The notes under the pieces were generated by a model. The model worked only from the letters and a program-made list of their open reading frames with translations, was not told where the DNA came from and searched no databases. A DNA stretch of 63,339 nt from a virus. Made by a program: the position numbers and the translations under genes. Location: the IMG/VR virus record IMGVR_UViG_3300028025_002225, positions 1-63,339 of that record; one strand, 5' to 3'. Below, piece by piece: positions 15,301 through 58,188 of this stretch. Position 1 is the first letter of the stretch; each line of letters starts with the position of its first letter.

Positions 15301-16545
15301 GCAGCATCTCGTGCTGGTATTGATATGCTAAGATCAATTCCAAGTACTACGCTACAACAAAGGCTAGATGCTCTTGTTTCATTACAACAAAAACCTGGTT
15401 TATCTTTAAAAGAACATGAAGAGATTGAACAAGAAGTTAATCAATTAACTAAACAGTACTTTCATGAAAGTTTAATATCTAGATTAGGATACACAGAAAC
15501 AGGTGCTGGTGCAGCATTAAGATATGATTATGCTAATACATCTGCTGGTATTCAAAGAAAAGTTATGGGTATATTTGCTAAGGCAATTTCTTTAAGAGCA
15601 CAAACTGATGCTAATCGTATTGCTGTATTAACAGTAGGTTCAGATATTATGGCTACGCAACTAAGATCGTTAGCTATGATTCCCGCTGCTAATAGAGCAG
15701 CTATGTTTGAATCTGGTATGGGTTTAACTAAAGAACAAGCACAATCTTTAACTGAGTTACAAGCTTATGGCTTAGATGTAAATGGCTTCTTAACCTTAAT
15801 GGATAAAATGCCTGATTTAAATCCATTTTCTAATGACTTTATGAGCTTAGAAGCTAATAGTCCTGAAGCACAACACCTACAAGATAACGTAGCTACTGCC
15901 CTTGGCAATATGGTTGATTCAAGAATTGTTAACCCACAAGCGTTTAATACACCATTAATATTTAACGACCCTAGATTTAGATTGTTAACCGCTATGGGTA
16001 GATTTATGGCTACAGCTCAAGCAGTTGTATTACCTAGATTGTATAAACAATATTTATTAGAAGGTAATATGGCTATGAAATACAGTGCATTTACTACTAT
16101 AGGTATGGCTATTATTGCTGGTCAATTAGTTAATATGCTTAAGAACAGTTTGTCTTATGGTGATGATGATAGTCCTTACGTTAAATCTTCTGTTAAGAAA
16201 GCACAAAGAGTTTTATATAGTTCTGGTTTATTAGGACAAGGTGAAAGATTGATTGAACAAATAAGTCCCTTATATGATTTCAATAGAGCACCTAACTTCT
16301 TTGATAAGACAACTGCTAAAGGGAAAGTTATTGAAGGTAAACCTGGAGAATGGGCTTATGAAAAAGTCAAAGGGTTATCTCCTCAAGCATCTTGGGCAGC
16401 TAGCGTAGGAGAAGGTATGTATAAATTAAGTGAGGGTAACACAGAAAAGGGTGTTAAACAACTTGCCAAAGCAGCACCTGTAATGGGTAGCTTCCCAATA
16501 ACTCAGCAGGAGTTTGCTAACATGTTTAAGAAAGAAGGTAAATAA
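12307..16545 (+). CDS. Very large internal virion (ejection) protein (1412 aa)
   Basis: An AAAGGAG site precedes the ATG at 12307. The protein has several hydrophobic, small-residue-rich helices around residues 350-400 and more near 938-965 and 1260-1280. Between them are long amphipathic helices, a pattern of T7 gp16-like proteins that build a transient channel through the inner membrane. No transglycosylase or protease motif was found. It shares its last base with the next ATG (TAATG), so the two are translationally coupled. Function inferred from size, order and hydrophobicity. Confidence 0.65.
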   Translation: MKPTDLAPIEEDSSILPPTNATANWLDPDTFKSKTTGKSNRVQGLNAPEVSHIKSDRIIPGQYQGESALIPEAARISGFTQDEVVGTDKYTRDINKVVNPATGENLGNFATRTGLVAPNPFTNEKAISDKSYLNAFSTLYPSLASQDPVLAAAKESKKAKQKALAQQGLPEYILGLNAPNEAAFAYQKNAVGTGAQTRILDRMKEIDADLATYGGSTTIYDPMTGLPQGETTAGITDSQRAMLLKEKAQLSNDLQYAAMAPDVYTGVDVRSKDRTMMNKSKSNLGTMYDSMWLGLYENTYGLGQLAGDVTGWEALSKAASKNVKLNQMEKGNLPEGLSFKDVTNANSTWDTISTGASFIGGQLINSLPYIAAITGAEIATAGMASPLIAGTLATMPVSAMYAGQFYAEQPDNKKDPMLAVMTAIGSGVLDKFGLDIALGANLFTKVGEKQAIEAMIRNSGGALGKAEARHLLHTEAKSEILKLTGFSNDFAMKQIKSAEAIAKRTADLTLRASAESGTETLQQELEMLGQSGQRNLNYRYTPEYKHQLMEAAGGGFLVGGAFGSVHHGIDMAGWHGAADLMALNEKMLGDAQRFQAENESALLNGTGGYRTVQEMSRSESRSAQQSNSPGLDSIPTHTGFFKETLIPMLTRPLSHLRQLATDAIPSITNEDGSFKTNLAKIKAIMGGYGILPGEHASGFRQRLLGKWTEGISLDDLAADLGVSREKAKEYVQHAFENVWSQGIKATGDIGYKIQAWKDKLDIAHQNMIDLGRVAGVDVTSIDSPNALFNAAEVDPAQWAANKLNILTEMVNAGADQGSARAAINNLTSKNKQEANLARDYLNQYGLFTNPNLSHLFKQGVFDNIEHHKDRIANAIMANTYFGKNGQVLAKLLKQAYDNNEFENEADYKNTATKVKAFYDIMNNNYHMPKEESLLHKTIGWATTMSMLAYLGKAAVSSQAEAAIALLGTPGHLISKQLGTYFKSYFKEAKADINMGVSYAASRAGIDMLRSIPSTTLQQRLDALVSLQQKPGLSLKEHEEIEQEVNQLTKQYFHESLISRLGYTETGAGAALRYDYANTSAGIQRKVMGIFAKAISLRAQTDANRIAVLTVGSDIMATQLRSLAMIPAANRAAMFESGMGLTKEQAQSLTELQAYGLDVNGFLTLMDKMPDLNPFSNDFMSLEANSPEAQHLQDNVATALGNMVDSRIVNPQAFNTPLIFNDPRFRLLTAMGRFMATAQAVVLPRLYKQYLLEGNMAMKYSAFTTIGMAIIAGQLVNMLKNSLSYGDDDSPYVKSSVKKAQRVLYSSGLLGQGERLIEQISPLYDFNRAPNFFDKTTAKGKVIEGKPGEWAYEKVKGLSPQASWAASVGEGMYKLSEGNTEKGVKQLAKAAPVMGSFPITQQEFANMFKKEGK

Positions 16546-19500
16546 TGGTTGGAAAAGTTTCAACACCATCTACAACCAATGTAAATGCTCCTATAGGCGG
16601 CAAACTATCGGTTCAAGATTTAATGAACCAAGCGGTAGATCGTTATGGTCAGGCATCTACCCCAGCAATTCCTGGATCAGAAGCTGCGGCTAAAGGTATT
16701 AGTGAATACAATCCTGTTCCCTTAGTCCCTTCACCATTACCAGCCCCTGGAATGAAAGGGGTTGTAGAGTCAAATAGAATTACCGCTGAGTCTTCTCCTC
16801 AAGCATTAGCAGATGTTACCCAGTCTCCTCTTGCTAGTATACCTAGAGTAGAACCTGTATTCAATGAAAGAGGTATGGCGGTTATTGATCCTAATACTGG
16901 TGAGTATGCTACTCAACAAATCCCTATGGAAAGATTTGGTGAAGAGCAGGAAGCTCAATTAGATTCAGTACCTAACTTTGATCCTGCGTTAATGGAAGAT
17001 AACTCTGTAGAAATGGCTAAGGCTATTCTAATTACTAACAACAAAGGCGACTTTGATGAAGTAACTATTAGTAGGCTTGCTGATAAAATGGCTCCTACCC
17101 TACAGACAATAGCTAATAACACTGAACACGATTTGTTTAATCCAACAGAAGCTACTATTGGTAGTACCCAACTAGGATATGAGAATGTTCCTGTAGGTAT
17201 TCAAATACAACATCAATTTAATATTCCACAAGAACAAGTAAAACCATTATCAACTATTATGGGTATTGCTCATGTGTTAGCAACTAATGAAACTAATCAG
17301 TTTAAAGAAAGCCCTAATACTGGTTACACAAAAGAAGATGGTTTAATCTTAGATTCTAGTGGCGCAGTAATTGAAGATGCCGTTCCTCAAGTTAATTTAA
17401 TTAACTCAATGATTCATTCTGCTCAAAATGCTTTAGAAAGAGTTGGTATTGATCTACCAGTAGAGGCTGTAAGACAATTAGCAGAAGCTAAAGTACAAGC
17501 AGAAATCTATAATGGTAATCATCGTTTAATGCAAGATAAAAACGGTAGATGGGTTCTTGGTTCTACTCCTAGAGTTAAAGACTATGCCAGAGAACTTAAG
17601 TATTTATCTGAAGCATTAGCAGGGGATATGCGTAGATCTCCCCCATCTAAAGTACCTCAATTATCAGGCTCTAACTTTTTAAAACCAGGAAGTCAAACTA
17701 GTAGAAATACTATGAAAGTTCCTGGGATGATTAGTAGAACAGCAGAAGTAGTTAAAGATATCTTTGGTTCTATAGCAGAAAAGTTTCAAAAGAAAAATGT
17801 TATATCTACCTATAAGCAACTTGAAGATATCCGAAACAATATGGTTGATGATGAGTCAGGTTACTACTCTACTAGTGTGTTTGCTAAAAGACACAAAATG
17901 GATCAGGCAACATACAAGAACTTATTAGCTCGTGTATCTCCTCCTAAAGATTACGATAACAATAAACCTGAAGACAGAAGTAAATTGTTTGATGCAAGAA
18001 TTAGTCATGCAAGAGACCAAATGGATTCAAGAATGAAGGCTCTTGAAAACGATATCAAGAAAGCTTCTGGATTAAAGGGCTTGTTATATAGCGCATTCAT
18101 TCATAGTAGTGCTAACCAACGTTTCTTTAGAAACAGTGATGGCACTGATATCATGGCTTCTAAAGGTGGTGTACGTGAGATGCTTAACTTTGGTGTACAA
18201 GGTCATGTTATCTCTACTTCATTATTTAATCCAACAAGGATTAAAGAACTACAACAAAGAGCTGAAGGTGTATTTAGTAAAGTAGGTCAGGCAAGACAAG
18301 ATGAGCTAATGAAAATGACACCATTTGACAGAGCTACTCTAGGTCTTATGGAAATGGCTGTTGTTAACTATTACTCTTTTTCTGCTGATCCTTCTGTTCA
18401 AAAGAAAAATATTAAGAAGTATTCTGAGCTAGAATTAGTTCAGATGTATACTCCTGAAATAGGTCAACACTTAGCTTCGTTAGGTAAAGACTACAATGAT
18501 TGGTTAAAAGGTGAACTACCTAATGACCATCCTTTTGTTGTAGATCAACTATCTAAAACACCTAGAGGGGAAGCGCAAGGGTTTCAAAACCTATGGGATG
18601 ATATGTTCCAGCTAATGTCTGCTTCACTTAATCCTGCTGCAACTAGAACACCTGTAAGATTATCTGCATTAAATTTTGATGATGGTAATCAAAACGGTAT
18701 CTTCTTACAAGCATTATATTCAGGTAATACTGACACAGCAACAAGGCTTGGTACATTTAACCCGTCATTAGCTGACATGCGTGGTCATGCTTTAAATATT
18801 ATCTATGATCAATTAGATGAATTACTACCTGATCAAGAACAAAAGAAAGAAGCATGGGCTAAATTCTTTACAGAGGCATATAACAAATTACCTGATAAAT
18901 TAGCTGCTGATTTATTCAAAGTACCTATGATGCAAAATTCTTATGGTAAAGATGCTGGTATGTTCTTTGAACATGTCAGGGAATTCTTAGAGGACTCTCA
19001 AGAGTATTCAACTATCTATAGTGATGTTATAGCTGAAGCATATAATAACGATATTAATGCAGCATCATCTGATTTAGCAAATGCTATGGAAGCTACTTTA
19101 AGGAAGACTATTAATCCTAAGTTTGTTGAAGCTTTAAAACGAGTAGGTCGTATGTTTGCTATTATGGATACCGTCCCTACTATCCTTGGTACTGCGGGAG
19201 ATCATTGGGTATTTAGTTCTGTTGACTGTGGGTTTATACCTGATTACAGTAAAAATGCTATTAGCCAAGCAATAACTCCTGAAGGTCAAGAGTATGTTGA
19301 AAAAGTAATTGGTCAAACTACTACAGGTTATATGACACCTGCTGGTCGTGTTGAAGCACCAATGGCTAGACGAGGTTTAAATCCTAATGCTTCTAAGGGC
19401 ATACAAAGATTCTTCAATAAGAAAACAAAAGTGTTTGATGTCTTTGAAAATGCAATTGGATCTGCTTTATCTAGACAAATGGGTGTTATGCCTATTCAAT

Positions 19501-20141
19501 CTACTGATGGCGACTTGATTAAGCTTATGATGCTTGCTGTTAATTCTAAATTAAAATTACCTATGCCTGTGTTTACTGTGCATGATGCGTTAATTACTAC
19601 AGCAGACTCTATGCACCTGTATCGTAATGCTTATAACAACATTGCTATACCACAAGCTATAGGCGAGATATCTAAATTTGGAATTAAATTAGATGAAGCT
19701 TATACTAAAGCTAAAGATAATTTGTTTAAAAAGTTATCAGGAGAACAATACATTGGTATTGGTGAGAATGGTGATTACCCTTCTCTTGGAGGTGTCTTTG
19801 ATGAGATCTCTAAAAAGATAGATAGCCCAACTTATAAAGAAGTTTTCTTAAGACGATCACATAATGATGAATCAAATTGGAATGATTATGTAGCTAAACA
19901 AAAAGAAATATTAAGGAGAGCTACAGAAGCAGGTTGGATTCAAGGTAAACCTAACTTAGCCGTTGATGCTAAGTCATTCAGAGAATTATTTAATCTTTCT
20001 GAAGAAGTATTTGGTATGGGTGGATCCAATAATAAATTCAAACAATGGGTTAATAACTTTTCAACTGATGTAGAACAAGGTTGGAAAGAGTTTAAACGTA
20101 ATACTGGTAAAGCTGGTATAGCCCAAATGACTCATGCTTAA
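16545..20141 (+). CDS. Virion-type single-subunit RNA polymerase fused to ejection-protein-like N-terminus (1198 aa)
   Basis: The C-terminal half carries, in order and at T7-like spacing, the catalytic motifs of single-subunit RNA polymerases. Motif A is FDDGNQNGIFLQAL (Asp713; T7 Asp537). Motif B is FKVPMMQNSYG (Lys792 and Tyr800, 8 apart as in T7 Lys631/Tyr639). Motif C is TVHDALIT (His1013-Asp1014; T7 His811-Asp812), preceded by QSTDGDLIKLMM, matching T7 HSQDGSHLRK. SANQRFF (520s) may stand for the T/DxxGR motif. The N-terminal 400 residues are linker-like. It is the last gene of the internal virion protein operon, so an N4-like virion RNAP delivered with the DNA is inferred. The phage also encodes a normal T7-type RNAP at 25339-27540. 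Confidence 0.8.
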   Translation: MVGKVSTPSTTNVNAPIGGKLSVQDLMNQAVDRYGQASTPAIPGSEAAAKGISEYNPVPLVPSPLPAPGMKGVVESNRITAESSPQALADVTQSPLASIPRVEPVFNERGMAVIDPNTGEYATQQIPMERFGEEQEAQLDSVPNFDPALMEDNSVEMAKAILITNNKGDFDEVTISRLADKMAPTLQTIANNTEHDLFNPTEATIGSTQLGYENVPVGIQIQHQFNIPQEQVKPLSTIMGIAHVLATNETNQFKESPNTGYTKEDGLILDSSGAVIEDAVPQVNLINSMIHSAQNALERVGIDLPVEAVRQLAEAKVQAEIYNGNHRLMQDKNGRWVLGSTPRVKDYARELKYLSEALAGDMRRSPPSKVPQLSGSNFLKPGSQTSRNTMKVPGMISRTAEVVKDIFGSIAEKFQKKNVISTYKQLEDIRNNMVDDESGYYSTSVFAKRHKMDQATYKNLLARVSPPKDYDNNKPEDRSKLFDARISHARDQMDSRMKALENDIKKASGLKGLLYSAFIHSSANQRFFRNSDGTDIMASKGGVREMLNFGVQGHVISTSLFNPTRIKELQQRAEGVFSKVGQARQDELMKMTPFDRATLGLMEMAVVNYYSFSADPSVQKKNIKKYSELELVQMYTPEIGQHLASLGKDYNDWLKGELPNDHPFVVDQLSKTPRGEAQGFQNLWDDMFQLMSASLNPAATRTPVRLSALNFDDGNQNGIFLQALYSGNTDTATRLGTFNPSLADMRGHALNIIYDQLDELLPDQEQKKEAWAKFFTEAYNKLPDKLAADLFKVPMMQNSYGKDAGMFFEHVREFLEDSQEYSTIYSDVIAEAYNNDINAASSDLANAMEATLRKTINPKFVEALKRVGRMFAIMDTVPTILGTAGDHWVFSSVDCGFIPDYSKNAISQAITPEGQEYVEKVIGQTTTGYMTPAGRVEAPMARRGLNPNASKGIQRFFNKKTKVFDVFENAIGSALSRQMGVMPIQSTDGDLIKLMMLAVNSKLKLPMPVFTVHDALITTADSMHLYRNAYNNIAIPQAIGEISKFGIKLDEAYTKAKDNLFKKLSGEQYIGIGENGDYPSLGGVFDEISKKIDSPTYKEVFLRRSHNDESNWNDYVAKQKEILRRATEAGWIQGKPNLAVDAKSFRELFNLSEEVFGMGGSNNKFKQWVNNFSTDVEQGWKEFKRNTGKAGIAQMTHA

Positions 20142-21968: not shown

Positions 21969-22043
21969 TGGTAGGTCATACAGGAATCGAACCTGTATTG
22001 ATGGCTTAGAAGGCCATTGTTCTGTCCATTGAACTAATGACCT
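21969..22043 (-). tRNA. tRNA-Arg (TCT anticodon)
   Basis: A complete cloverleaf: acceptor AGGTCAT/ATGACCT, anticodon loop CTTCTAA on a five-base stem (ATGGC/GCCAT), T arm with TTCGATT loop, discriminator A and encoded CCA. Reads AGA codons, common in AT-rich phage genes. Last of the tRNA cluster, 15 bases before the RyR gene. Confidence 0.93.
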
Positions 22044-22048
22044 ATGTA

Positions 22049-22135
22049 TGGTGGATTTTCTAGGAGTCGAACCTAGTTGCCCCTAAGGGCTACAGATTTA
22101 CAGTCTGCTGCAGTCGCCAATGCTGCTCAAAATCC
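22049..22135 (-). tRNA. tRNA-Tyr (GTA anticodon)
   Basis: Acceptor GGATTTT/AAAATCC, anticodon loop CTGTAAA on GCAGA/TCTGT, a long variable arm (CCCTTAGGGG) as expected for bacterial tRNA-Tyr, T loop TTCGACT and encoded CCA. 87 nt. Five bases separate it from the tRNA-Arg. Confidence 0.93.
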
Positions 22136-22152
22136 TTGTTGTTTAGTTGTTG

Positions 22153-22413
22153 GTGGCTCCAATTTGCCTTGCCCCGCTAAGGTAAGCACACGCAGAGTCT
22201 TGTCTCAACCAAGGATTGCGTTTCCTTTGGCATAGCCACAGCGTCCTGTAGCGTTACGAACTTCACACCAACACGGCTGGGGACTGTTCAGGTGGTCTAG
22301 GGCTTCTTCTCTCCCCACCTACGGCGTAGCATCCTTTCGGTCTAGCCCTCAGCCGCAATCCCCATGCGTCTTGATGTTAAAGAAACACCCCCATAAAGAG
22401 GGTGTCGGGCCAC
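22153..22413 (-). ncRNA. Candidate structured non-coding RNA between tRNAs, family unknown
   Basis: About 260-300 GC-rich bases without a convincing protein gene, in an AT-rich genome, flanked by tRNAs on the same strand. Minus-strand pairings seen: an exact 8-bp helix between 22354-22361 (GGATTGCG) and 22213-22220 (CGCAATCC); inside it GGCTG/CAGCC (22350-22354 with 22275-22279) and AGGGCT/AGCCCT (22344-22349 with 22299-22304); a 6-bp hairpin with GACG loop at 22236-22251; a 6-bp hairpin at 22385-22405; and a possible closing GTGGC/GCCAC (22409-22413 with 22153-22157). I could not match it to tmRNA, RNase P RNA or group I intron cores. It is much shorter than GOLLD or ROOL RNAs, which also sit near phage tRNAs. 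Confidence 0.65.
22376..22405 (-). terminator. Possible terminator-like hairpin at the 5' side of the structured RNA
   Basis: GC-rich stem ACACCC/GGGTGT with a 9-base loop, followed on the minus strand by TTTCTTTAA. It could be a weak terminator or pause after the upstream tRNAs, or simply the first hairpin of the structured RNA. Confidence 0.35.
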
Positions 22414-22438
22414 AGATACGATCTTGTGGGGAATTAAA

Positions 22439-22513
22439 TGGTTGCGGAGGAAGGATTCGCACCTTCGACTTCTGGATTATGAGTCCAGCACTCTACTACT
22501 GAGCTACTCCGCT
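22439..22513 (-). tRNA. tRNA with CAT anticodon, copy 1 (Met or Ile-lysidine)
   Basis: Cloverleaf with acceptor AGCGGAG/CTCCGCA, anticodon loop CTCATAA on CTGGA/TCCAG, T arm GAAGG/CCTTC, discriminator A and encoded CCA. The first and last acceptor bases are A and A and do not pair. CAT may be methionine or, after lysidine modification, isoleucine (AUA); the sequence alone does not decide. It lacks the three G:C pairs of an initiator anticodon stem. Confidence 0.88.
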
Positions 22514-22521
22514 ATATTCAT

Positions 22522-22596
22522 TGGTTGCGGAAACTGGATTCGAACCAGTAACCAAGGGATTATGAGTCCCCTGCTCTACCTTTAAGCTATCCCGCA
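22522..22596 (-). tRNA. tRNA with CAT anticodon, copy 2 (Met or Ile-lysidine)
   Basis: Acceptor TGCGGGA/TTCCGCA (one G-T wobble), anticodon loop CTCATAA on GGGGA/TCCCT, T loop TTCGAAT and encoded CCA. Body sequence is quite different from copy 1, so the two CAT tRNAs are likely different isoacceptors, for example one Met and one Ile2. Confidence 0.9.
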
Positions 22597-22605
22597 TTAT
22601 GCATT

Positions 22606-22677
22606 GGGTACTCGGTAATGGATTTAAACCATTATCTCTCAATTAATCGTTGATTGCTTTACTTAAGCTAACCGAGC
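22606..22677 (-). tRNA. Atypical or degenerate tRNA (apparent ATT anticodon)
   Basis: The acceptor (GCTCGGT/ACCGAGT), D arm and T arm fold as a tRNA, but the anticodon loop reads CGATTAA with G in place of the invariant T33. The T loop is TTTAAAT instead of TTC-RA-x, and the 3' end is A-CCC rather than CCA. The apparent anticodon would be ATT (Asn), unusual in bacteria. It may be a decaying tRNA or a tRNA-like element. It is the first unit after the promoter at 22681. Confidence 0.6.
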
Positions 22678-22680
22678 TTG

Positions 22681-22700
22681 TTCTCTATTAGGGGACGTCT
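22681..22700 (-). promoter_or_regulatory. Putative phage RNAP promoter before the tRNA cluster
   Basis: Minus strand reads AGACGTCCCCTAATAGAGAA, matching the phage promoter consensus and almost identical to the copy at 3047. It overlaps the 3' end of the thioredoxin-like gene and lies just upstream of the tRNA genes. Confidence 0.72.
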
Positions 22701-23382: not shown

Positions 23383-23403
23383 CTCCTATTAGGGGCCAAC
23401 TGG
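23383..23403 (-). promoter_or_regulatory. Putative phage RNAP promoter before the GIY-YIG gene
   Basis: Minus strand reads CCAGTTGGCCCCTAATAGGAG, a promoter motif copy with G in place of T before CCCC. It lies between the RNR stop and the ATG at 23372. Its GGAG also sits 8-10 bases from that ATG and could double as a ribosome site. Confidence 0.65.
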
Positions 23404-25320: not shown

Positions 25321-25340
25321 TTCGGTATTAGGGGCCATCT
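25321..25340 (-). promoter_or_regulatory. Putative phage RNAP promoter before RNR
   Basis: Minus strand reads AGATGGCCCCTAATACCGAA. The core CCCCTAATA is kept, but the start region (CCGA) differs from the other copies, so it may be weaker. It overlaps the stop of the RNA polymerase gene, about 30 bases before the RNR start. Confidence 0.6.
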
Positions 25341-33960: not shown

Positions 33961-33981
33961 ACTCCTATTAGGGGACAACTG
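33961..33981 (-). promoter_or_regulatory. Putative phage RNAP promoter before the MazG/deaminase/replication block
   Basis: Minus strand reads CAGTTGTCCCCTAATAGGAGT, a strong match to the consensus. It lies 8 bases upstream of the small gene starting at 33953 and would drive MazG, deaminase, DNA polymerase, exonuclease and helicase genes. Confidence 0.72.
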
Positions 33982-40935: not shown

Positions 40936-41445
40936 TTAGAATGGTGAATCATCAGAAGATGATGAAGATGTATCATCAGACTCGGTAGCATCAAAGTCTA
41001 CAAAGTTTTCATTATTACGTTCATATTTAACAAGTTTAGTTACTTGAACAGCAGTGAGCATGTTGGAGATACCTGACTTAGTAACTTTACCATTAGGTGC
41101 TTTGATTTCATAAGGTTTCTGCATAACCATTACGTTACCGATAGAACCATTACCAATGAGCTTAGAGTCAAGAGGATTCTTAGCATTATCTACAACACGT
41201 ACTTTAACAGCATCAGTTCCATCAGCTTTAAGAGCTTTCTTCTTGAGGTTAATAGAGATTTTACCACCATCAATAGACTTAACTTTACCGAAAGCAGATA
41301 ATTCTTTTTCACGTTTCTTGGGAGCTTGGATTTGTAGTTCATACTGTAGAGTACCGAATGGATCAACTGGCTTGTCTAATTTAGCCCAATGTAATTCTAC
41401 ATCTTTGATGATTACGTTTACTGTGTCATTGATTGCTGTTGTCAT
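40936..41445 (-). CDS. Single-stranded DNA-binding protein, T7 gp2.5-like (169 aa)
   Basis: The N-terminal OB-like part has VELHWAKLDKPVDPFGTLQYELQI, a pattern of phage gp2.5-type SSBs, and the protein ends with an acidic Ser/Asp tail terminating in Phe (SSDDSPF), as in gp2.5, where the tail contacts polymerase and helicase. It protects single strands and supports recombination. A phage promoter (42043) points to it, and a terminator directly follows, suggesting high, separate expression. Confidence 0.82.
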   Translation of the reverse strand: MTTAINDTVNVIIKDVELHWAKLDKPVDPFGTLQYELQIQAPKKREKELSAFGKVKSIDGGKISINLKKKALKADGTDAVKVRVVDNAKNPLDSKLIGNGSIGNVMVMQKPYEIKAPNGKVTKSGISNMLTAVQVTKLVKYERNNENFVDFDATESDDTSSSSSDDSPF

Positions 41446-41476
41446 GATATATTTTTCCTATGGATTTAAGTGTGTA

Positions 41477-41499
41477 AGAGTAGTCCCCTAATAGAGATA
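41477..41499 (+). promoter_or_regulatory. Putative phage RNAP promoter before the small terminase-like gene
   Basis: AGAGTAGTCCCCTAATAGAGATA; identical to the copy at 45863 over 20 bases. It drives the isolated + strand gene at 41547, with a terminator directly after that gene. It faces the opposite promoter at 42043. Confidence 0.75.
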
Positions 41500-41546
41500 G
41501 CGTAGTTATCACTACTCTATAGGAGACATTATATGAAGGAGAGATT

Positions 41547-41927
41547 ATGCCTAGAAGCATACACCCAAATTCATTAGCTAATTTGAAGGTTATTACGTCT
41601 GAGACTGCAAGAGCTGCTCAATTAAAGAGTGCTGCATCAAAGTCATTAAACCACAAAATGGCTGAAGAATTTAAGATTTCAGCTAAAGCTTTTCAGAAAG
41701 CTCTAGTAGATTTACCACAAGTATCATCATTAGATGTACTTAGAATGGCAATGTTCAAAGCCCTTCAAGAAGATAACTTTGAAGATGCAGCAAGATACGC
41801 TAATATGATAGCAGAGTATGAGAATCCTAAGCTAGCTCGGATTGAACAGACTAATACTAACAAGACAGTGGATCTTACTGATGAAGAACTTAAGAAGATT
41901 ATCTCTGAAGAAGGTCTTCAAGAATAG
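41547..41927 (+). CDS. Small terminase subunit candidate (126 aa)
   Basis: A helical protein with VSSLDVLRMAMFKALQEDNFEDAARYANMIAEYE, then PKLARIEQT and a C-terminal DLTDEELKKII. This order is what I know from small terminase subunits of aquatic podoviruses. It would recognise phage DNA and regulate the large subunit. GGAG lies before the ATG. It is 4 kb from the large terminase gene, with oppositely oriented genes between. Flanked by its own promoter and terminator. Confidence 0.68.
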   Translation: MPRSIHPNSLANLKVITSETARAAQLKSAASKSLNHKMAEEFKISAKAFQKALVDLPQVSSLDVLRMAMFKALQEDNFEDAARYANMIAEYENPKLARIEQTNTNKTVDLTDEELKKIISEEGLQE

Positions 41928-41932
41928 TAATC

Positions 41933-41980
41933 AAGAGAACAGTATTTAAGGATATATCCTTATTTATTGTTCTCTTTTTT
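41933..41980 (+). terminator. Rho-independent terminator after the small terminase-like gene
   Basis: A long imperfect stem: AGAGAACAGTATTTAAGGATA pairs with TATCCTTATTTATTGTTCTCT (one wobble and two mismatches), followed by six T. It isolates the small terminase transcript. The opposite strand has no T run after the stem, so it works in the + direction only. Confidence 0.85.
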
Positions 41981-42042
41981 ATTTATCTTTAATTAAGTTC
42001 TTTTATCAATAATATACTTTAAATAATATATTAAAGATGAAC

Positions 42043-42061
42043 TCCCTATTAGGGGACAACT
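42043..42061 (-). promoter_or_regulatory. Putative phage RNAP promoter pointing to SSB
   Basis: Minus strand reads TAGTTGTCCCCTAATAGGGAG, the closest copy to the consensus. It lies just downstream of the gene ending at 42075. Its transcript crosses the small terminase-like gene antisense before reaching SSB at 41445, so it is convergent with the promoter at 41477. Confidence 0.75.
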
Positions 42062-42074
42062 AAATTGGGAATCT

Positions 42075-42245
42075 TTAACGTTGTACTAAAGTATACGTAT
42101 AACGAGTTGGATTAACTAGGTCATAGAAGTCACAATCATCAATCTCAACACTTGACTCTTGGTCATGTAGAGATTCATAGGCTTCTTCAATAGTCTCACC
42201 GATACCCATTAAAGAGAAGTCATCACGAAGGATAGCTAAGAACAT
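42075..42245 (-). CDS. Unknown small acidic protein (56 aa)
   Basis: MFLAILRDDFSLMGIGETIEE and EIDDCDFYDLVNP; acidic with several aromatic residues. A GGAG site precedes the ATG. Last gene of the probable early block. Function unknown. Confidence 0.6.
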   Translation of the reverse strand: MFLAILRDDFSLMGIGETIEEAYESLHDQESSVEIDDCDFYDLVNPTRYTYTLVQR

Positions 42246-42246
42246 T

Positions 42247-42552
42247 TTAAGTACTCCATTCTATAGATTTGATATTTACTGACTTGATAGCAGACATACA
42301 TATAGCACATGGTTTAGCATACATTTGTCTGCCTTCTTTGTTTGTTCTGATAACGAGCATTTTGTATGCTTTTGATATATCAGAACATTTCACAATAGCT
42401 GAAACTTCAGCATGTAAAAAGATTCTCTCAGGCATATTCTGTTTCTTTGCATGTAATGCCTGAAAAGGATGTGTCTTGGTATAACTGTTTTTACCTATAC
42501 TTAAGATCTTTCCTTTCTTGTCATAGATTATTGCTGTTAGGTTTTGTTCCAT
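42247..42552 (-). CDS. Cytidine/deoxycytidylate deaminase-fold protein (101 aa)
   Basis: Zinc deaminase motifs FLHAEVSAI and KPCAICMSAI are present in a minimal domain, with TKTHPFQALHAKK before them. This is a second deaminase besides the dCMP deaminase at 32964. Substrate unknown: free nucleoside, nucleotide or a polynucleotide base are all possible. It overlaps the upstream gene by 32 bases. Confidence 0.72.
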   Translation of the reverse strand: MEQNLTAIIYDKKGKILSIGKNSYTKTHPFQALHAKKQNMPERIFLHAEVSAIVKCSDISKAYKMLVIRTNKEGRQMYAKPCAICMSAIKSVNIKSIEWST

Positions 42553-42703
42553 TGGATACCTTGTTTACTTTCAATAATTTACCTTTAAGAAAATGTTTTT
42601 GGATACCAGTTTCAGGGTCATACACAATGGTTGTGTCAGCTTTGACCTTAGCTTTGATACGTTTGATCAGATCGAAGTAGATTTCAGCGGCTTGATGAGC
42701 CAT
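42521..42703 (-). CDS. Small basic protein (60 aa)
   Basis: MAHQAAEIYFDLIKRIKAKV, then TTIVYDPETGIQKHFLKG; basic, strand-rich. Overlaps both neighbours. No family recognised. Confidence 0.58.
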   Translation of the reverse strand: MAHQAAEIYFDLIKRIKAKVKADTTIVYDPETGIQKHFLKGKLLKVNKVSNGTKPNSNNL

Positions 42704-42869
42704 TATTTGATTCCTTCCTTACCATAAGCTCATTGTGTTGTTTAGCTTTCTTTGAGTATTCTTTAGCCATATTTGTTTGATCAACGTCATTAAGATATTG
42801 ATTCAGCATATATGATAAAAGAATTAGTAGGATTATCAGTACAATTACCATTACTAGAGCGACCATCAT
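42684..42869 (-). CDS. Small membrane protein (61 aa)
   Basis: A strongly hydrophobic N-terminus (VALVMVIVLIILLILLSYML) then a polar basic tail. Overlaps neighbours by 20 and 4 bases. Possibly an early membrane-acting protein. Confidence 0.6.
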   Translation of the reverse strand: MMVALVMVIVLIILLILLSYMLNQYLNDVDQTNMAKEYSKKAKQHNELMVRKESNNGSSSR

Positions 42870-43120
42870 TCTGGATCCTTAGCTTTAATTATACCTTGAA
42901 ATAATGTATCTTCAGGACAAACTAGAGGATCATTATTTTGGCTACTGTATCTGAATAATGTTTGATAGATTTCATCACATTCATTCCTGACTTTATTTTC
43001 CCCTGAGACTCTACCTACAAGTTCACAGACTATGTCTAACTGTAGTTGGTTTAGTGTTAGTGTGTAGTATGTTTCTTTTTCAAGAAGAATACCATTGTCT
43101 TTAACTCTTGTTGTCTTCAT
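42866..43120 (-). CDS. Unknown small protein (84 aa)
   Basis: MKTTRVKDNGILLEKETYYT, then a helix (LNQLQLDIVCELVGRVSG). Overlaps both neighbours by 4 bases. No family recognised. Confidence 0.6.
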   Translation of the reverse strand: MKTTRVKDNGILLEKETYYTLTLNQLQLDIVCELVGRVSGENKVRNECDEIYQTLFRYSSQNNDPLVCPEDTLFQGIIKAKDPE

Positions 43121-43536
43121 AATTGCTCCTCGATTAAGTCAGCTAGTTCGTTGAAGGTGTATGCAAAGTTATCGTTTAACTCTGCTAACGTTATTAGTGA
43201 GTCTTCTCTGATTATATTTTTATATCCTTCCTTAATGTTCTTTTCATTCATTTTTATTTTTGGATTTTCACTTTCTAGCTTAGCCCATTTCATTACTGGA
43301 TAAGGTAATTCTGAGTCTTCATTCCAACGTTCTTCGAATGAGTTATCATACCAGAAGGTGTAACCCATGTGTTCTTTTGAACGATCATATTTACCGATAC
43401 TTTCTTTTTCGGCTAGGTCACATAGTACACCTAGACAACAGTATGTATCTTCATTGGGTCTTAACAGGTTTTTACCTTGATGGTATTTACCTGACCTGAG
43501 AGCAGATACCCATTGGGCTTTAACTTTGGGATTCAT
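43117..43536 (-). CDS. Conserved phage hypothetical protein (139 aa)
   Basis: SGKYHQGKNLLR ... YCCLGVLCDLAE ... LAELNDN ... FNELADLIEEQL is a pattern seen in many phage and bacterial hypothetical proteins. Function unknown. Confidence 0.72.
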   Translation of the reverse strand: MNPKVKAQWVSALRSGKYHQGKNLLRPNEDTYCCLGVLCDLAEKESIGKYDRSKEHMGYTFWYDNSFEERWNEDSELPYPVMKWAKLESENPKIKMNEKNIKEGYKNIIREDSLITLAELNDNFAYTFNELADLIEEQL

Positions 43537-43868
43537 TAGGTTACTCCATTGATGATGAGGCTATGATAAGAGACAATTTTGTTTCCTTGGTAGGTTAAGA
43601 TGATGCTACCGATTTCTTCATATGATGGATGTACTTTACCGATACCCCTTTCTTCGAACTTTTGAGCTATGTGTTGAACACTGTTAATGTATATCTTACG
43701 AGTGGTGTATGTGATGACTTCTTCACTGGGTTTTACTCGGTATGATTTATCGTCATACCACATTGGTTTCTCGGAGTCGTACCATGTGCTTGTATCTTCG
43801 TTGAAACACTGGATTTTAGCACCAGATGCCCATTCTGTGATGAGGTCGTAGTGGATGTGTTTGGTCAT
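43536..43868 (-). CDS. Unknown protein (110 aa)
   Basis: An aromatic, beta-rich N-terminus (IQCFNEDTSTWYDSEKPMWYD ending in DDKSYRVKP) is a frequent phage motif; then a helical segment and a strand. It abuts the previous gene. Confidence 0.62.
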   Translation of the reverse strand: MTKHIHYDLITEWASGAKIQCFNEDTSTWYDSEKPMWYDDKSYRVKPSEEVITYTTRKIYINSVQHIAQKFEERGIGKVHPSYEEIGSIILTYQGNKIVSYHSLIINGVT

Positions 43869-44044
43869 TTGTTTTCTTTTTCTATTGCTTTATCGAACAT
43901 TTCATGGGCGAGATTCATGGTTATCGTTGCTATGAATAATGCTATAGCACGATCACTGTCTGTATATCTTCCACAATATTCGAGGAGTTCATCGACTGAT
44001 CTAGGTGTTACGAAGAACCCTGAGTATGGAAACGGGTTGTTCAT
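43865..44044 (-). CDS. Unknown small protein (59 aa)
   Basis: MNNPFPYSGFFVTPRSVDEL then a helix (DRAIALFIATITMNLAHEMF). ATGA-type overlaps at both ends. Function unknown. Confidence 0.6.
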   Translation of the reverse strand: MNNPFPYSGFFVTPRSVDELLEYCGRYTDSDRAIALFIATITMNLAHEMFDKAIEKENK

Positions 44045-44274
44045 TTGAATGCTCCTTTTGATTCACTTTGTTTCACTTCTGACACACAAAAACGATTTTC
44101 TACAAAAACTGTCTTCTCGCTACTTCTCTGCGGTACTTCCTCCCAAGAACAGTCTGCCCAATGTATTCTTTCATTATCTTTCAAGGCTAGTTGGAGCTGT
44201 TTTGTCCTTAGGTATACCCTACCCATCATTTTCTGTTTGATGTCTTCTAGGTATTGTTCTATAGTAATGTTCAT
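44041..44274 (-). CDS. Unknown small protein (77 aa)
   Basis: The start at 44274 (MNITIEQYLEDIKQKM) shares a base with the upstream stop. A basic helix is followed by a mixed polar region (HWADCSWEEVPQRSS). No family recognised. Confidence 0.6.
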   Translation of the reverse strand: MNITIEQYLEDIKQKMMGRVYLRTKQLQLALKDNERIHWADCSWEEVPQRSSEKTVFVENRFCVSEVKQSESKGAFK

Positions 44275-44522
44275 TATATGACTCTTACTAGTTGATCGTA
44301 TACAGAAGTATACTCGAGTACTGTCCCTTCGATATCTACCTGAGAGCACAGTCCTTCGAGTGCTGTCTTGGTGTTTGCCATGATGAATGCTACTGTTCCT
44401 CCTGTGATTGTTGTTGACATTAAGATGTCACATCCAAACTCTTGTGTTGCCTCCCTGATTTCCTCGTAGGTGTCTAGGCAGAAGTCTGCTGGTGTTACTG
44501 GTGTTAAGAGTATGTACTTCAT
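44274..44522 (-). CDS. Unknown small protein (82 aa)
   Basis: MKYILLTPVTPADFCLDTYEE; alpha/beta with TTITGGTVAFIMANTKTA. Preceded by an untranslated stretch that carries the repeated hairpin element at 44556. Function unknown. Confidence 0.6.
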   Translation of the reverse strand: MKYILLTPVTPADFCLDTYEEIREATQEFGCDILMSTTITGGTVAFIMANTKTALEGLCSQVDIEGTVLEYTSVYDQLVRVI

Positions 44523-44555
44523 GTTTATCCCCTTGTGGTGAGTGTGTTATGTAAA

Positions 44556-44584
44556 CTTGGTACCTACCCCAAGTGGTCTCACTT
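44556..44584 (-). repeat. Repeated early-region hairpin element, copy 1
   Basis: A 29-base unit that matches 44936-44964 at 28 positions, with further similarity beyond (CTTCACG on the minus strand). On the minus strand it can form AAGTG-AGAC-CACTT and ACTTGG...CCAAGT hairpins. It ends 34 bases before the ATG at 44522. Promoter, RNA-processing site or leader structure are all possible. Confidence 0.75.
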
Positions 44585-44613
44585 TTATTTAGCCGTGAAG
44601 ACTGTCTTACAGG

Positions 44614-44904
44614 TTATGCTTCAACTACTTCATTGAACCATACATTACCATCCCATCCTTGTGTGACACCGAAGTGTACCTTCTTACCTACCAATGCACG
44701 AGCAGTCTTATATTCCTTACGAGCATGGTCTACATCACGAGTGATGGACATCTTACGGATAACTTGTTGGTCATCCACTGCATACCAGTAACGGTTCTCT
44801 TTGTCTACAAAGACTGCCATCAAGACAGATGGATGAGCTGTGTAAGCTGTTGTGGTTGTGTCGCCCTTGATTGCAAAGGCTGGTTTGATTGCTTGGGTTT
44901 CCAT
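44614..44904 (-). CDS. Unknown protein (96 aa)
   Basis: METQAIKPAFAIKGDTTTTA, then YWYAVDDQQVIRKMSITRD and VHFGVTQGWDGNVWFNEV; beta-rich. A GGAAA site precedes the ATG, and the second copy of the repeat element lies 32 bases upstream. Function unknown. Confidence 0.62.
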   Translation of the reverse strand: METQAIKPAFAIKGDTTTTAYTAHPSVLMAVFVDKENRYWYAVDDQQVIRKMSITRDVDHARKEYKTARALVGKKVHFGVTQGWDGNVWFNEVVEA

Positions 44905-44935
44905 GATGTTTCCTTTCAGGTTGATGATAACTTAC

Positions 44936-44964
44936 CTTGGTACTTACCCCAAGTGGTCTCACTT
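44936..44964 (-). repeat. Repeated early-region hairpin element, copy 2
   Basis: Same element as at 44556-44584 with one difference (minus strand GTAAG instead of GTAGG), placed at a similar distance (about 32 bases) before a start codon. The repetition at matched positions before two different genes suggests a regulatory function. Confidence 0.75.
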
Positions 44965-44985
44965 ATACTCGTGAAGAGTTAAACC

Positions 44986-45093
44986 TTAGTACGTTACTAC
45001 CTCATAGTACTGTGGATCGTACTCATTGAGGATAGTTACTGATGATGTCTTGCACATCAATACTCGAGTGAGTCTATGATAGACGTAATACAT
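44986..45093 (-). CDS. Very small protein (35 aa)
   Basis: MYYVYHRLTRVLMCKTSSVT, basic then acidic at the end. Its ATG overlaps the stop of the membrane protein upstream (TAATG). No similar protein recognised; support is the coupled start only. Confidence 0.45.
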   Translation of the reverse strand: MYYVYHRLTRVLMCKTSSVTILNEYDPQYYEVVTY

Positions 45094-45290
45094 TATAATA
45101 CTCCTTCGTTGTGTTTGTCTTCAATGTTACGGATGAGATCAATTGCTTGCATACCAGCTAAGACAGCAGATGCGATCAGGATAACAATAACAAGGATAGC
45201 ATTGTTGTCATGTGTGTAGATCTGATCAACAGACCAAGAGGCAGCAGAGTACCACATCAAAGCGGTAAGGACGTTGAGGATTGTGTACAT
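45093..45290 (-). CDS. Small two-span membrane protein (65 aa)
   Basis: Two hydrophobic segments (about 3-20 and 30-50) then a charged C-terminus (RNIEDKHNEG). A GGAG site precedes the ATG. Early position suggests a host membrane or takeover target, but nothing specific is visible. Confidence 0.6.
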   Translation of the reverse strand: MYTILNVLTALMWYSAASWSVDQIYTHDNNAILVIVILIASAVLAGMQAIDLIRNIEDKHNEGVL

Positions 45291-45318
45291 GTTAATCTCC
45301 TTGAGTTATGTACTAACA

Positions 45319-45356
45319 AGAGCAAGATCGCTCTCCATTGGGTTGTTACACCCAAT
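45319..45356 (-). promoter_or_regulatory. Tandem hairpins in the leader of the early membrane-protein gene
   Basis: Two short perfect inverted repeats: ATTGGGT/ACCCAAT (45337-45356) and AGAGC/GCTCT (45319-45334), between the stop at 45368 and the ATG at 45290. No T run follows, so not a simple terminator. They may be processing or promoter structures like the element at 44936. Confidence 0.45.
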
Positions 45357-45367
45357 AGGCAGAGATC

Positions 45368-45832
45368 TTAGGCACGAATAGCAACCAACAGTGCCTCAAG
45401 AGCAGCAGCACGAGAGTTGTCACCATTAACCTTCCAGTCAGCAACAAACTTAGAGTTGCATTCATCGTCCTCCTCAAAAGCCAAAGACACAATGGCAGGC
45501 CACACAGCAGCAACAACAGGCGGCAAAGCAAAGTCAACAAACGCCTGACCAGACCCGTAAGAACAGACAGACACAGACAAAGCACCGTCCAACGCAACCT
45601 CCGACAAGAACCGAACAGCAGCGCCAAAGGAAGGAGCAAACGAAGACAGAGACACAGAGACAACAGGAGAAGAAGAAGAAAAAGAGACCACGGAACACCT
45701 CCAAGAGAGAAGACAGGGCAACAGCGCCCAACGAGACCCGACCAGCAGCACGACACCCCAGCACGAGACAGGGGGGTCACACGACACAGAAGGGGGAGAA
45801 CAAACAAACACATGATTCTTTTTCACACACAA
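45368..45832 (-). CDS. Unknown early protein with A-depleted coding strand (about 150 aa)
   Basis: This frame ends SKFVADWKVNGDNSRAAALE...AIRA and has many codons ending in T, as in the neighbouring genes, so it is preferred over the overlapping frame at 45346-45813. Over roughly 45,480-45,790 the coding strand has almost no A and is much more GC-rich than the rest. The middle is Ser/Val/Ala-rich with cysteines. The start is uncertain (TTG 45832 or GTG 45826, no clear ribosome site). No family recognised. First gene of the early block. Confidence 0.5.
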   Translation of the reverse strand: MCVKKNHVFVCSPPSVSCDPPVSCWGVVLLVGSRWALLPCLLSWRCSVVSFSSSSPVVSVSLSSFAPSFGAAVRFLSEVALDGALSVSVCSYGSGQAFVDFALPPVVAAVWPAIVSLAFEEDDECNSKFVADWKVNGDNSRAAALEALLVAIRA

Positions 45833-45862
45833 AGACTAAGGGGGTTATAGAAAAAATAACAA

Positions 45863-45885
45863 AGAGTAGTCCCCTAATAGAGAAA
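45863..45885 (+). promoter_or_regulatory. Putative phage RNAP promoter before large terminase
   Basis: AGAGTAGTCCCCTAATAGAGAAA, identical to the copy at 41477 over 20 bases, 16 bases before the large terminase ATG. It would drive the packaging and capsid operon up to the terminator after the capsid gene. Confidence 0.75.
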
Positions 45886-45900
45886 CTATAACGAAAGCAT

Positions 45901-47541
45901 ATGTCTAACATCTCAAACACCCGCAAGCTAGAGGCTTTAAGGGAACTAAAGCGAAGAGAAAAACTCGCAGAATACCAAAATAACTTTGAACTCTTTGCGA
46001 AAGAGCAGATAAAGATTCTACCCAAAGACTCCCGACTAGGATTCCAACCCTTTCTCTTTAATGACGCCCAGAAGATTGTTAATGATGCGATCGAGGGGCA
46101 ACTAAAGGAAACGGGCAAAGTCAGGGCTATTATTTTAAAAGCCCGTCAGATGGGTCTTTCTACATATACTACTGGTAGAGTATTCTGGAAGTCTTATTTC
46201 AATGCTTTTAACAAGTCAGTTGTCATGGCTCATGATGCTGCAACCTCAGACGCTCTCTTTACTATGTCCAGGAATATTATTTCTAATATGCCTGAGCAGT
46301 TCTCACCCACATTAAAGCGGTCTAATGCAAAAGAGATTATGTTTGAACATAATGATTCTGGTTATAGATTGTATACAGCTGGTTCTCCTGAGGCAGGTAG
46401 GGGTATTACACCAACAATCGCACATCTTTCAGAAGTTTCTTTCTGGCTCCATGATGAAAAGATTTTAGCGGGATTATTCCAGGGGATCTCCCAAGCAGAT
46501 GGTACAGAGGTTATTCTCGAGAGTACGGCTAATGGGGTAGGTAACTCTTTTCATAGGTTATGGACAGATGCTGTAGCAGGTAAAAATGAGTATGTTCCTA
46601 TATTCGTACCTTGGTTCCTTATGTCTGAATACCAGAGGAAGACACCTGAGGGGTTTGAGAGGACAGATGAGGAAGAGTTACTTGTTACAAGGTTTAGCTT
46701 AACTGATGAACAGTTATACTGGAGAAGATTAAAGATTGCTGAGAGTGGTATTGATAAATTCAAACAAGAATACCCAGCTACTCCTGAAGAAGCCTTTATT
46801 GTATCTGGCTCTAATGTATTTAATATTGAAAAGTTAAATAGGTTAATACCACAACCAATCCTAGCTCAAAGAGAATTTAACTTTGAGAGTATGATGATGG
46901 AGGATGCCCGACAGGGGTCTATTGAAATATTTAAGTATCCTTCTTTTGATCAATCTTTTGTTATAGCTGCTGATGTATCCTTAGGGGTAGGCAAAGATCA
47001 TTCTGCCGCAGTAGTTATGAATGCAGAAAAAGAAGTATGTGCCACGTATAGAAATAATATGATTGATCCCAGTAAGTTTGGGGATCTATTGTTTTATTTA
47101 GGTAGGTACTATAATAATGCTTTAATGGCTGTAGAGTCAAATAGTATGGGTATTGCTACTCTGAATAGACTAGTTCAGATGGGTTATGTCAATATGTACT
47201 ATCAGACTAAGATGGCTAATGTATCTAAGGAAGAGGGTATGCGGATGGGTTGGAGAACAACAACATCATCTAAACCAGCTATCATTGGATTTCTTAAGAG
47301 TGCTATTGAACAAGAGGAAATATGGATACCTTCAAGGACTATTATTGGGGAGTTAATGAATTATGTGGCTGATGACAATGGTAGGACAAATGCTATTGTT
47401 GGTCACAATGATGATACCGTTATCGCTCTTGCTATTGCTCTCGAAGTAATAAGGACACACGGAGATAAACTAACAACAACTAATGTACCCTTCACACAGA
47501 AGATGGGTTCATTCCAACAAATAGAAACAACATGGTTGTAA
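45901..47541 (+). CDS. terL: Terminase large subunit (546 aa)
   Basis: The ATPase part has a Walker A variant ARQMGLSTYT (about 81-90) and a Walker B segment TPTIAHLSEVSFW ending in Glu, followed by the coupling motif ESTANG. The nuclease part has AADVSLGVGKDHSAA and, near the C-terminus, GHNDDTVIALAIAL with the metal-binding Asp pair. It translocates DNA into the procapsid and cuts concatemers. Size is typical. First gene of the packaging and capsid operon. Confidence 0.92.
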   Translation: MSNISNTRKLEALRELKRREKLAEYQNNFELFAKEQIKILPKDSRLGFQPFLFNDAQKIVNDAIEGQLKETGKVRAIILKARQMGLSTYTTGRVFWKSYFNAFNKSVVMAHDAATSDALFTMSRNIISNMPEQFSPTLKRSNAKEIMFEHNDSGYRLYTAGSPEAGRGITPTIAHLSEVSFWLHDEKILAGLFQGISQADGTEVILESTANGVGNSFHRLWTDAVAGKNEYVPIFVPWFLMSEYQRKTPEGFERTDEEELLVTRFSLTDEQLYWRRLKIAESGIDKFKQEYPATPEEAFIVSGSNVFNIEKLNRLIPQPILAQREFNFESMMMEDARQGSIEIFKYPSFDQSFVIAADVSLGVGKDHSAAVVMNAEKEVCATYRNNMIDPSKFGDLLFYLGRYYNNALMAVESNSMGIATLNRLVQMGYVNMYYQTKMANVSKEEGMRMGWRTTTSSKPAIIGFLKSAIEQEEIWIPSRTIIGELMNYVADDNGRTNAIVGHNDDTVIALAIALEVIRTHGDKLTTTNVPFTQKMGSFQQIETTWL

Positions 47542-56994: not shown

Positions 56995-58188
56995 ATGTCA
57001 TATATTGGTAGTACTCCTACTCAACAATCATTTGTTCCTTCATTAGATTATTTTAGTGGTAATGGATCAACTGTAGCATTTACATTATCTAGACCAGTAG
57101 CCTCTGTTGCTCAAGTACAAGTTAATATTTCTAATGTAGCACAGAATCCAAGCAGTGCATACTCAGTTAATGGTAATGTTATTACGTTCACCTCTGCTCC
57201 ACCAAGCGGTACAAACAACATCTATGTGTACTACACCAGCCCGATTACTCAGGTGATTGCACCGGGGCAGGGAACGGTTACATCAGAGAGCTTTGGAACT
57301 ATCACCAACTTCACCACCACAGGCAACACTGTCCTTGGTGACGCATCTACTGACACACTGAATGTCGGTAATGGAGGCTTGGTCAAGGATGCCAGCGGTA
57401 ATGTGGGTATTGGTACTGCTTCGCCAGCTTATAAATTACAAGCAAATGCTGGCGGTTCAAACAACAACAATGACGCAAATACTATTGTAGCCACAGGAAC
57501 GAACCACGTTCGATTGAAGGTGCACACGCCAACTACGGGCGGGTTTCGAGCGTCTTTGGTTCTTTCGTCTGACGAGGCCGTTACAGCAACGGGCAACGAG
57601 GTCAGCATTTCCACAACTGGCTCTGATGAAATGCAGTTTGCTACTGGCGGCTCAGAACGTGCCCGTATCGACTCCAGCGGTAACTTGCTGGTGGGGACTA
57701 CGAGTAATGGACGAACTGACTCAAACGGAACTGCGATTGACCCAACTGGTGTTGTTTACCAAAATCATATAACTGGTACAGCTTCAGGAAGTTTTTACAC
57801 CCGTTTTTCTCTTGCAGGCACTCAAATTGGCTCTATTTCTCAGAGTGGAACTACTGCTGTTGCATATACCACATCATCCGACTACCGCTTAAAGAATACT
57901 ATCGCCCCAATGACAGGAGCACTGGCGAAGGTTCAACAACTCAAGCCAGTCACATATAAGTGGAACGCTGACGGCTCAGACAGCCAAGGCTTTATTGCAC
58001 ATGAATTACAAGAAGTAGTACCGGATTGTGTGCATGGGGAAAAAGACGCAGTGGACGCTGATGGCAATCCGCAGTATCAAGGCATCGACACCAGCTTCTT
58101 GGTTGCCACACTGACAGCCGCAATCCAAGAACAACAAGCCCTCATCACCACCCTAACTAACCGCATCACAGCACTGGAGAATAAATAA
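56995..58188 (+). CDS. Tail fibre with S74 intramolecular chaperone (397 aa)
   Basis: The N-terminal adaptor begins MSYIGSTPTQQSFVP. The C-terminal S74 (endosialidase chaperone-type) domain has TTSSDYRLKNTIAPM, with the Ser...Lys dyad five apart (S-D-Y-R-L-K), and QGFIAHELQEVVPD. It should trimerise and then cut itself off. Base composition changes sharply near 57,190-57,240, between the AT-rich N-terminal part and a GC-richer remainder, showing a fibre swap. Confidence 0.85.
   Translation: MSYIGSTPTQQSFVPSLDYFSGNGSTVAFTLSRPVASVAQVQVNISNVAQNPSSAYSVNGNVITFTSAPPSGTNNIYVYYTSPITQVIAPGQGTVTSESFGTITNFTTTGNTVLGDASTDTLNVGNGGLVKDASGNVGIGTASPAYKLQANAGGSNNNNDANTIVATGTNHVRLKVHTPTTGGFRASLVLSSDEAVTATGNEVSISTTGSDEMQFATGGSERARIDSSGNLLVGTTSNGRTDSNGTAIDPTGVVYQNHITGTASGSFYTRFSLAGTQIGSISQSGTTAVAYTTSSDYRLKNTIAPMTGALAKVQQLKPVTYKWNADGSDSQGFIAHELQEVVPDCVHGEKDAVDADGNPQYQGIDTSFLVATLTAAIQEQQALITTLTNRITALENK

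Follow-up and report, generated by a model that had tools for sequence, protein, structure and literature searches.

A candidate second RNA polymerase, conserved intergenic hairpins and an almost adenine-free leader at the early block of a phage related to Roseobacter phage CRP-7

Which RNA polymerase (RNAP) reads the early genes is the question raised by the 63,339-nucleotide environmental virus record IMGVR_UViG_3300028025_002225, analysed here at its full length (the window). The record represents a short-tailed phage of bacteria whose nearest cultured relative found, Roseobacter phage CRP-7 (MK613349), shares its gene layout and has a 58% identical terL. On the plus strand, late genes extend from terL (45901) to the end of the record and on to 20141; early and middle genes lie on the minus strand, and the genes of the early block (45832-42075) reach up to ~45.7 kb. 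A sequence-only reading of this DNA had set the block apart as a transcription class of its own and had remarked that none of eight promoter motifs directs transcription into it. Both points stand: pattern and weight-matrix scans return exactly eight T7-type promoters in the window, 0/8 of which fire into 45832-42075. Since the promoter core is partly palindromic, the strand was called from the asymmetric flank AGTNGTCCCCTAATAGRGA. The eight promoters are presumed to be read by a T7-like RNAP of 733 amino acids (aa). Comparison with 80 related loci (L numbers), gathered by a terL scan, leads to the proposal, which seems to us somewhat likelier to be right than wrong, that the early unit is read by a second RNAP from about 45813-45834, with two hairpin families, F1 and F2, as processing signals and the T7-like RNAP acting later.

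A virion RNAP had been suggested for the early block, and a candidate for this enzyme does exist, in a gene that the sequence-only reading did not name: 16545-20141, which follows genes for other very large late proteins. Its 1198-aa product has no significant PHROG match and a Pfam match to DNA_pol_A that is sub-threshold only, and sequence-profile searches of the PDB found no RNAP. Among 23 relatives, motif A (DDGNQNG), motif B (KVPxxxxSYGKD) and motif C (VHDA) are conserved; D713, K792, Y800 and H1013-D1014 are invariant or nearly so, R526, D712-D713-G and Y800-G-K-D are kept as well, and diverged forms of the protein retain D, YGK and HDA. The spacing of motifs A and B resembles that of DGVTNG and KNPxxxxxYG in the N4 mini-virion RNAP (mini-vRNAP). 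An AlphaFold model of residues 420-1198 based on 23 sequences reached a pLDDT of 88 and a pTM of 0.86 (the entire protein with 8 sequences gave a poor model, pLDDT 54.7), and the best 50 Foldseek rows against the PDB were single-subunit RNAPs throughout (50/50, best E 1e-8). VIA-align Z scores were 15.4 for yeast mitochondrial RNAP, 15.1 for T7 RNAP and 13.8 over 520 residues for N4 mini-vRNAP, with the caveat that a helical model may score Z 13-14 by chance. The RNAP domain forms the C-terminal two thirds of the protein and combines, in the model, the cupped-right-hand fold with catalytic motifs A, B and C. Because the top rows are uniform, the catalytic motifs are present and coverage is full, there is little doubt that the product belongs to the single-subunit RNAP family, and RNA synthesis is predicted for it. 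Homologs were found in all near-complete relatives examined, in L259-L261 just as diverged forms (BLAST E ~1e-7 to 1e-8), and in CRP-7, where gp33 (matching the version of L037 with E 3.4e-44) is annotated merely as a hypothetical protein. The genes adjoining the second RNAP, 9716-12289 (857 aa) and 12307-16545 (1412 aa), encode very large late proteins without clear family matches, the latter with a weak match to a virion structural protein (E 0.0015); both are probable ejection proteins.

A start element, CTTTGTGTGTGAAAAAGAATCA, marks the 5′ edge of the early block and has one match in the window even when 3 mismatches are allowed; no second copies of it were found there. It is kept at the equivalent position in aligned relatives and is the probable best candidate for the early promoter or transcript start, which the second RNAP may use. 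A hairpin within the element was rejected as a signal, its pairing being weak and, in several relatives, broken without compensation. The GTTAT/ATAAC inverted repeat at 45844-45860, to which the sequence-only reading had drawn attention, is present but was likewise set aside, as it is changed (ATACTTTTT...TATAG) in 7/8 closest aligned relatives and hence not conserved. In L013, L024, L063 and L066 the intergenic region between terL and the early block is longer and carries iteron-like repeats (e.g., TTTTAGTTTAAGGAA, GGGGAAAGTCTG) in varying number, ~50-200 nucleotides (nt) upstream of the start element; the window is without them.

Further into the block, the repeated element (44556, 44936) and the tandem hairpins at 45319-45356 flagged by the sequence-only reading are real and turn out to be parts of F2 and F1, respectively; the repeat copies at 44545-44587 and 44925-44967 share 84% identity across 43 nt. 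The comparison across relatives for covariation that had been advised shows both families to be conserved and F1 to covary strongly. In 25 diverse F1 sequences, 93.8% of cells are paired, both sides have changed in 10/16 pairs, and covariation amounts to 0.597 vs <=0.133 for slid partners; the sequence is free to vary while pairing stays, and this compensatory change argues for selection at the level of RNA. F1 and F2 recur at equivalent early-block positions in most relatives and, given this recurrence and the covariation of F1, are not chance structures. Covariance models run over 530 kb (window, relatives and CRP-7) gave 32 F1 and 21 F2 matches, all on the early-sense strand and <= ~2.3 kb from terL. 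As the models were partly built from the same loci, recovery there is expected, and the absence of matches elsewhere is the informative part. Rfam searched at gathering and E-value thresholds returned tRNAs plus one sub-threshold chance match, and no F1 or F2 family. Both elements are long irregular RNA stems, with loops of 4-8 nt in F1 and 8 nt in F2; they are intergenic and lie upstream of Shine-Dalgarno (SD) sites, mostly 25-50 nt ahead of the next start codon. They share with T7-type RNase III signals the intergenic position, the early mRNA sense strand and the conserved irregular hairpin, covarying in F1, and by this analogy F1 and F2 are most likely RNase III-type processing signals of the early mRNA. 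They thus behave in line with the third option of the sequence-only reading, which had listed processing sites beside virion RNAP and host promoters. The two RNA families may also serve as markers for early operons of this phage group.

Just inside the start element, the early-sense strand is nearly devoid of adenine (A). The stretch 45500-45799 (minus) is the extreme of A content in the entire window (z -9.2), and the scarcity covers coding and non-coding sequence alike. Averaged over 67 loci, A content by distance from the start element is 1.7% at 75-100 nt, ~15% at 400 nt, 30% at 1000-1100 nt and ~37% beyond 2 kb. The relatives examined share an A-free leader, and the early start of CRP-7 shows 200 nt with zero A; its occurrence in this isolate argues against an assembly artefact. 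The end of the leader usually coincides with the first F1 hairpin or lies close to it. The side of the first F1 on which a sequence lies explains A content better than distance does (R2 0.60 vs 0.49), and at 330-430 nt A makes up 7.0% upstream of the first F1 vs 31.6% downstream (p 4e-6, overstated like all p-values for A content because the related sequences are non-independent). As the window, L034, L057 and L062 regain A before F1, the F1 border is a tendency. Members of the 65-aa membrane-protein family have normal A even at 150 nt when downstream of F1, and older short-leader clades (L019, L030, L080; terL 84-92% identical) regain A at once. In one gene family, clustered by linked similarity and possibly including distant members, genes near the element have 2-3% A, with 7% of residues needing A, vs ~28% A farther away (rho 0.81). 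The 107-aa first early gene has a recognisable homolog in L075 at a different position. Contig ends show no visible clustering at the leader and thus speak neither for nor against a genome terminus at this place, and substitution spectra gave no separation of mutation from selection for A loss. A sharp-edged A-free tract was not found in H6/1, HTVC200P, CRP-1, N4, VSW-3, CRP-4 or Vibrio 1.204 (CRP-1 and N4 to 50 kb); HTVC200P and H6/1 contain milder A-poor stretches. A literature search found no description of hundreds of nt, coding sequence included, that are nearly without one base across a phage lineage. Such a pattern speaks for selection, acting on the leader transcript or on its template, rather than for mutation that decays with distance, and points to a constraint on the RNA or DNA that comes first in infection. 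One candidate cause lies in the template, which has no T, so that a single-stranded DNA-binding protein would bind by preference to the T-rich non-template strand; alternatively, the lack of A might confer resistance to an RNase directed at A. Since A-free sequence cannot contain stop codons, long open frames occur in all three sense frames (45346-45832 minus; CRP-7 57271-57966). The open reading frame 45346-45813 is probably spurious, and CRP-7 gp72, annotated on the opposite strand over the A-free tract, is doubtful.

Together, these observations are consistent with the following scheme. The block 45832-42075 would constitute an early transcription unit, with transcription beginning at or near 45813-45834 (minus) by the second RNAP rather than the 733-aa T7-like RNAP. 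As judged by analogy with phage N4, the second RNAP is probably packaged in the particle and injected. The polycistronic early RNA would open with the almost A-free leader cistron, and RNase III-type cleavage at F1 and F2 would split it into leader and early cistrons, much as the early mRNA of T7 is processed. Early products or read-through would then bring about the T7-like RNAP and, through its eight promoters, expression of middle and late genes. More tentatively, and with the balance in our view tipped against the full generalization, a compact virion RNAP might read the early unit throughout the CRP-7-like short-tailed lineage, with the first cistron purged of A by nucleotide-level selection that reshapes the proteins, and with a strand-asymmetric leader (template without T) functional in the first transcription. 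If so, the leader might keep the single-stranded DNA-binding protein off the template, or might yield an RNA that is set free at the first hairpin and is long-lived.

Several findings weigh against the proposed scheme. The start element, whose TCTTT/AAAGA pairing is weak, is no hairpin of the N4 type, and the CRP-7 sequence at this position differs; nor does CRP-7 yield any F1 or F2 model match, just other hairpins. The low variability of F2 limits how strongly covariation can be tested in it. The second RNAP has one third of the size of N4 gp50 and no sequence-profile match to it, the hhalign probability against N4 mini-vRNAP being 0.6%. Finally, host sigma factors could have a consensus that went unrecognised. 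This last point bears on the somewhat unlikely view that early transcription is the work of host RNAP at a sigma70-type promoter, placed within the terL start or upstream of it, and that the second RNAP has another role. T7-like phages have their class I genes transcribed by host RNAP, and several relatives have AT-rich, TATAAT-like boxes in their intergenic region. However, 56/59 loci score no better than chance for sigma70 upstream of the start element, and the 3/59 loci with sigma70-like sites themselves represent chance level; across 41400-46300, 12 such sites were found vs 14.2 expected, both counts referring to the sigma70 consensus, which may not be that of the host. The window, moreover, offers just 66 nt upstream of the start element, and the sole strongly conserved element is not sigma70-like. 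The host promoters that the sequence-only reading had considered are thus not borne out by any sigma70 signal above chance.

That same reading had likened the hairpins to N4 promoters, and F1 and F2 might accordingly serve the second RNAP as promoters, one ahead of each early gene. The conservation of the hairpins, their multiple copies, their restriction to one strand and their place upstream of genes would suit this idea, as would the existence of a candidate virion RNAP. N4 promoters, however, comprise a 5-7-bp stem and a 3-nt loop, with conserved stem and loop bases needed for binding and a conserved -17 to +1 region (PMC4496689), whereas F1 stems change completely between phages while pairing is kept. 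Size and loops of F1 and F2 are unsuitable, they sit between genes by ribosome-binding sites, and the first cistron, where a promoter would be most needed, has no upstream hairpin; a promoter function is therefore very improbable. A role as mobile intergenic cassettes that aid early-gene shuffling by recombination, without any processing, appears improbable to us: close relatives do differ in early gene content and F1 copies lie at module borders, yet the compensatory changes of F1 speak for selection on the RNA, and the stems of copies from a single genome often differ in sequence, which makes these copies poor substrates for homologous recombination. As for the leader, A-targeted mutation decaying with distance from the transcription start could account for the smooth climb of mean A from 1.7% to ~37% over 2.5 kb and for the replacement of A by the other three bases in rough proportion. 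It is an unlikely origin given the difference across the first F1 at equal distance (with the same reservation about its p-value), the better fit of F1 side than of distance, and the immediate return of A in the old short-leader clades; a pure distance model was ranked behind the first-F1 border.

Table 1. Features of the window that bear on early transcription (SD, Shine-Dalgarno; E values as reported by the respective search)
Feature	Position	Strand	Remarks
T7-type promoter	3050-3065	+	late/structural genes
Second single-subunit RNAP, 1198 aa, candidate virion RNAP	16545-20141	+	last gene of late block
T7-type promoter	22682-22697	-	before tRNA cluster
T7-type promoter, approximate core	~23383-23398	-	
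T7-type promoter, approximate core	~25322-25337	-	downstream end of T7-like RNAP gene
T7-like RNA polymerase, 733 aa	25339-27540	-	PHROG RNA polymerase 1.6e-95; Pfam RNA_pol 3.8e-56
T7-type promoter	33962-33977	-	middle genes
T7-type promoter	41482-41497	+	small plus-strand gene 41547-41927
T7-type promoter	42043-42058	-	downstream end of early block; fires away, into middle genes
Remaining early block	42247-43868	-	six short genes, final one dCMP-deaminase-like
Early gene, 82 aa	44274-44522	-	F2 copy 2 upstream; conserved family, 52 loci
F2 RNA element, copy 2	44554-44602	-	E 8.1e-13
Early gene, 96 aa	44614-44904	-	KGDTTT family
F2 RNA element, copy 1 (29-base repeat)	44934-44978	-	E 6.4e-15
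Early gene, 65 aa, probable membrane protein (MYTILNVLTALMWYSAASW...)	45093-45290	-	conserved family, 42 loci
F1 RNA hairpin, 54 nt	45316-45369	-	includes tandem hairpins 45319-45356; covariance-model E 1.5e-10 in window
First early gene, 107 aa	45368-45691	-	GTG start; SD TTGGAGG; codons nearly A-less
A-free leader	45500-45799	-	7 A in 300 nt, early-sense strand; just inside start element
Start element CTTTGTGTGTGAAAAAGAATCA	45813-45834	-	5′ edge of early block
T7-type promoter	45868-45883	+	terminase gene; fires away from early block

The core of the T7-type promoters is nearly palindromic (CTAATAG/CTATTAG at 41482, 42043, 45868 and in relatives), and their sequences vary between clades (e.g., TAGTCGGTTCCTATTAGGAAA), which suggests co-evolution with the T7-like RNAP. 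At 41917-41992, after the plus-strand gene 41547-41927, a strong inverted repeat with a T run behind it is a likely terminator of this lone plus-strand gene, which lies amid minus-strand genes and has its own T7-type promoter at 41482. Five tRNA genes (21969-22677, minus; four by ARAGORN, five by Rfam) follow the promoter at 22682.

Elements of this arrangement recur in known systems. In T7 early mRNA, irregular intergenic RNase III hairpins with internal loops stand just before the next ribosome-binding site. F1 and F2 share the irregularity, the internal loops and this position between early genes; unlike the T7 signals, they have other sequences, are conserved as families across the lineage and are putative as cleavage sites. 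The promoter early stem-loops (PeSL) of T4-type phages are repeated stem-loops joined to a sigma70 early promoter. F1 and F2 are stem-loops too, repeated between the early genes of a variable region, but no sigma70 promoter was found in them (with a consensus that may not be the host's), and F1 is conserved in structure and variable in sequence. CRP-7 resembles the window in possessing both RNAPs, the same gene layout and an A-free leader where the early block begins; it differs in lacking F1 and F2 matches, in the sequence of the start element and in extra genes upstream of terL. Like N4, the window encodes a single-subunit RNAP in addition to another phage RNAP, and, as with N4 gp50, its gene is the last of the late block and convergent with the middle genes; the fold is the same as that of N4 vRNAP (by the Z score and residue span given above, with its caveat) and the motif A/B spacing matches. 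Whereas N4 gp50 has ~3500 residues with a central RNAP domain, the second RNAP carries the domain at its C-terminal end and has no detectable sequence-profile match to gp50; no N4-type promoter hairpins with a 3-nt loop were found, and N4 for its part is without an A-free leader in its first 50 kb. Virion RNAPs were proposed earlier, on indirect grounds, for Stenotrophomonas phage StenR_269, Xanthomonas phage DES1 and Zobellviridae (PMC10747016), a proposal that appears to rest on size, helicity, lack of cysteine and low-confidence models; like the second RNAP, the candidate there is a large protein at a similar genome position. If the second RNAP is indeed packaged, start-up by a virion RNAP extends beyond N4-like phages and their 3500-residue enzyme, and CRP-7 gp33 provides a cultured representative of a natural enzyme of much smaller size.

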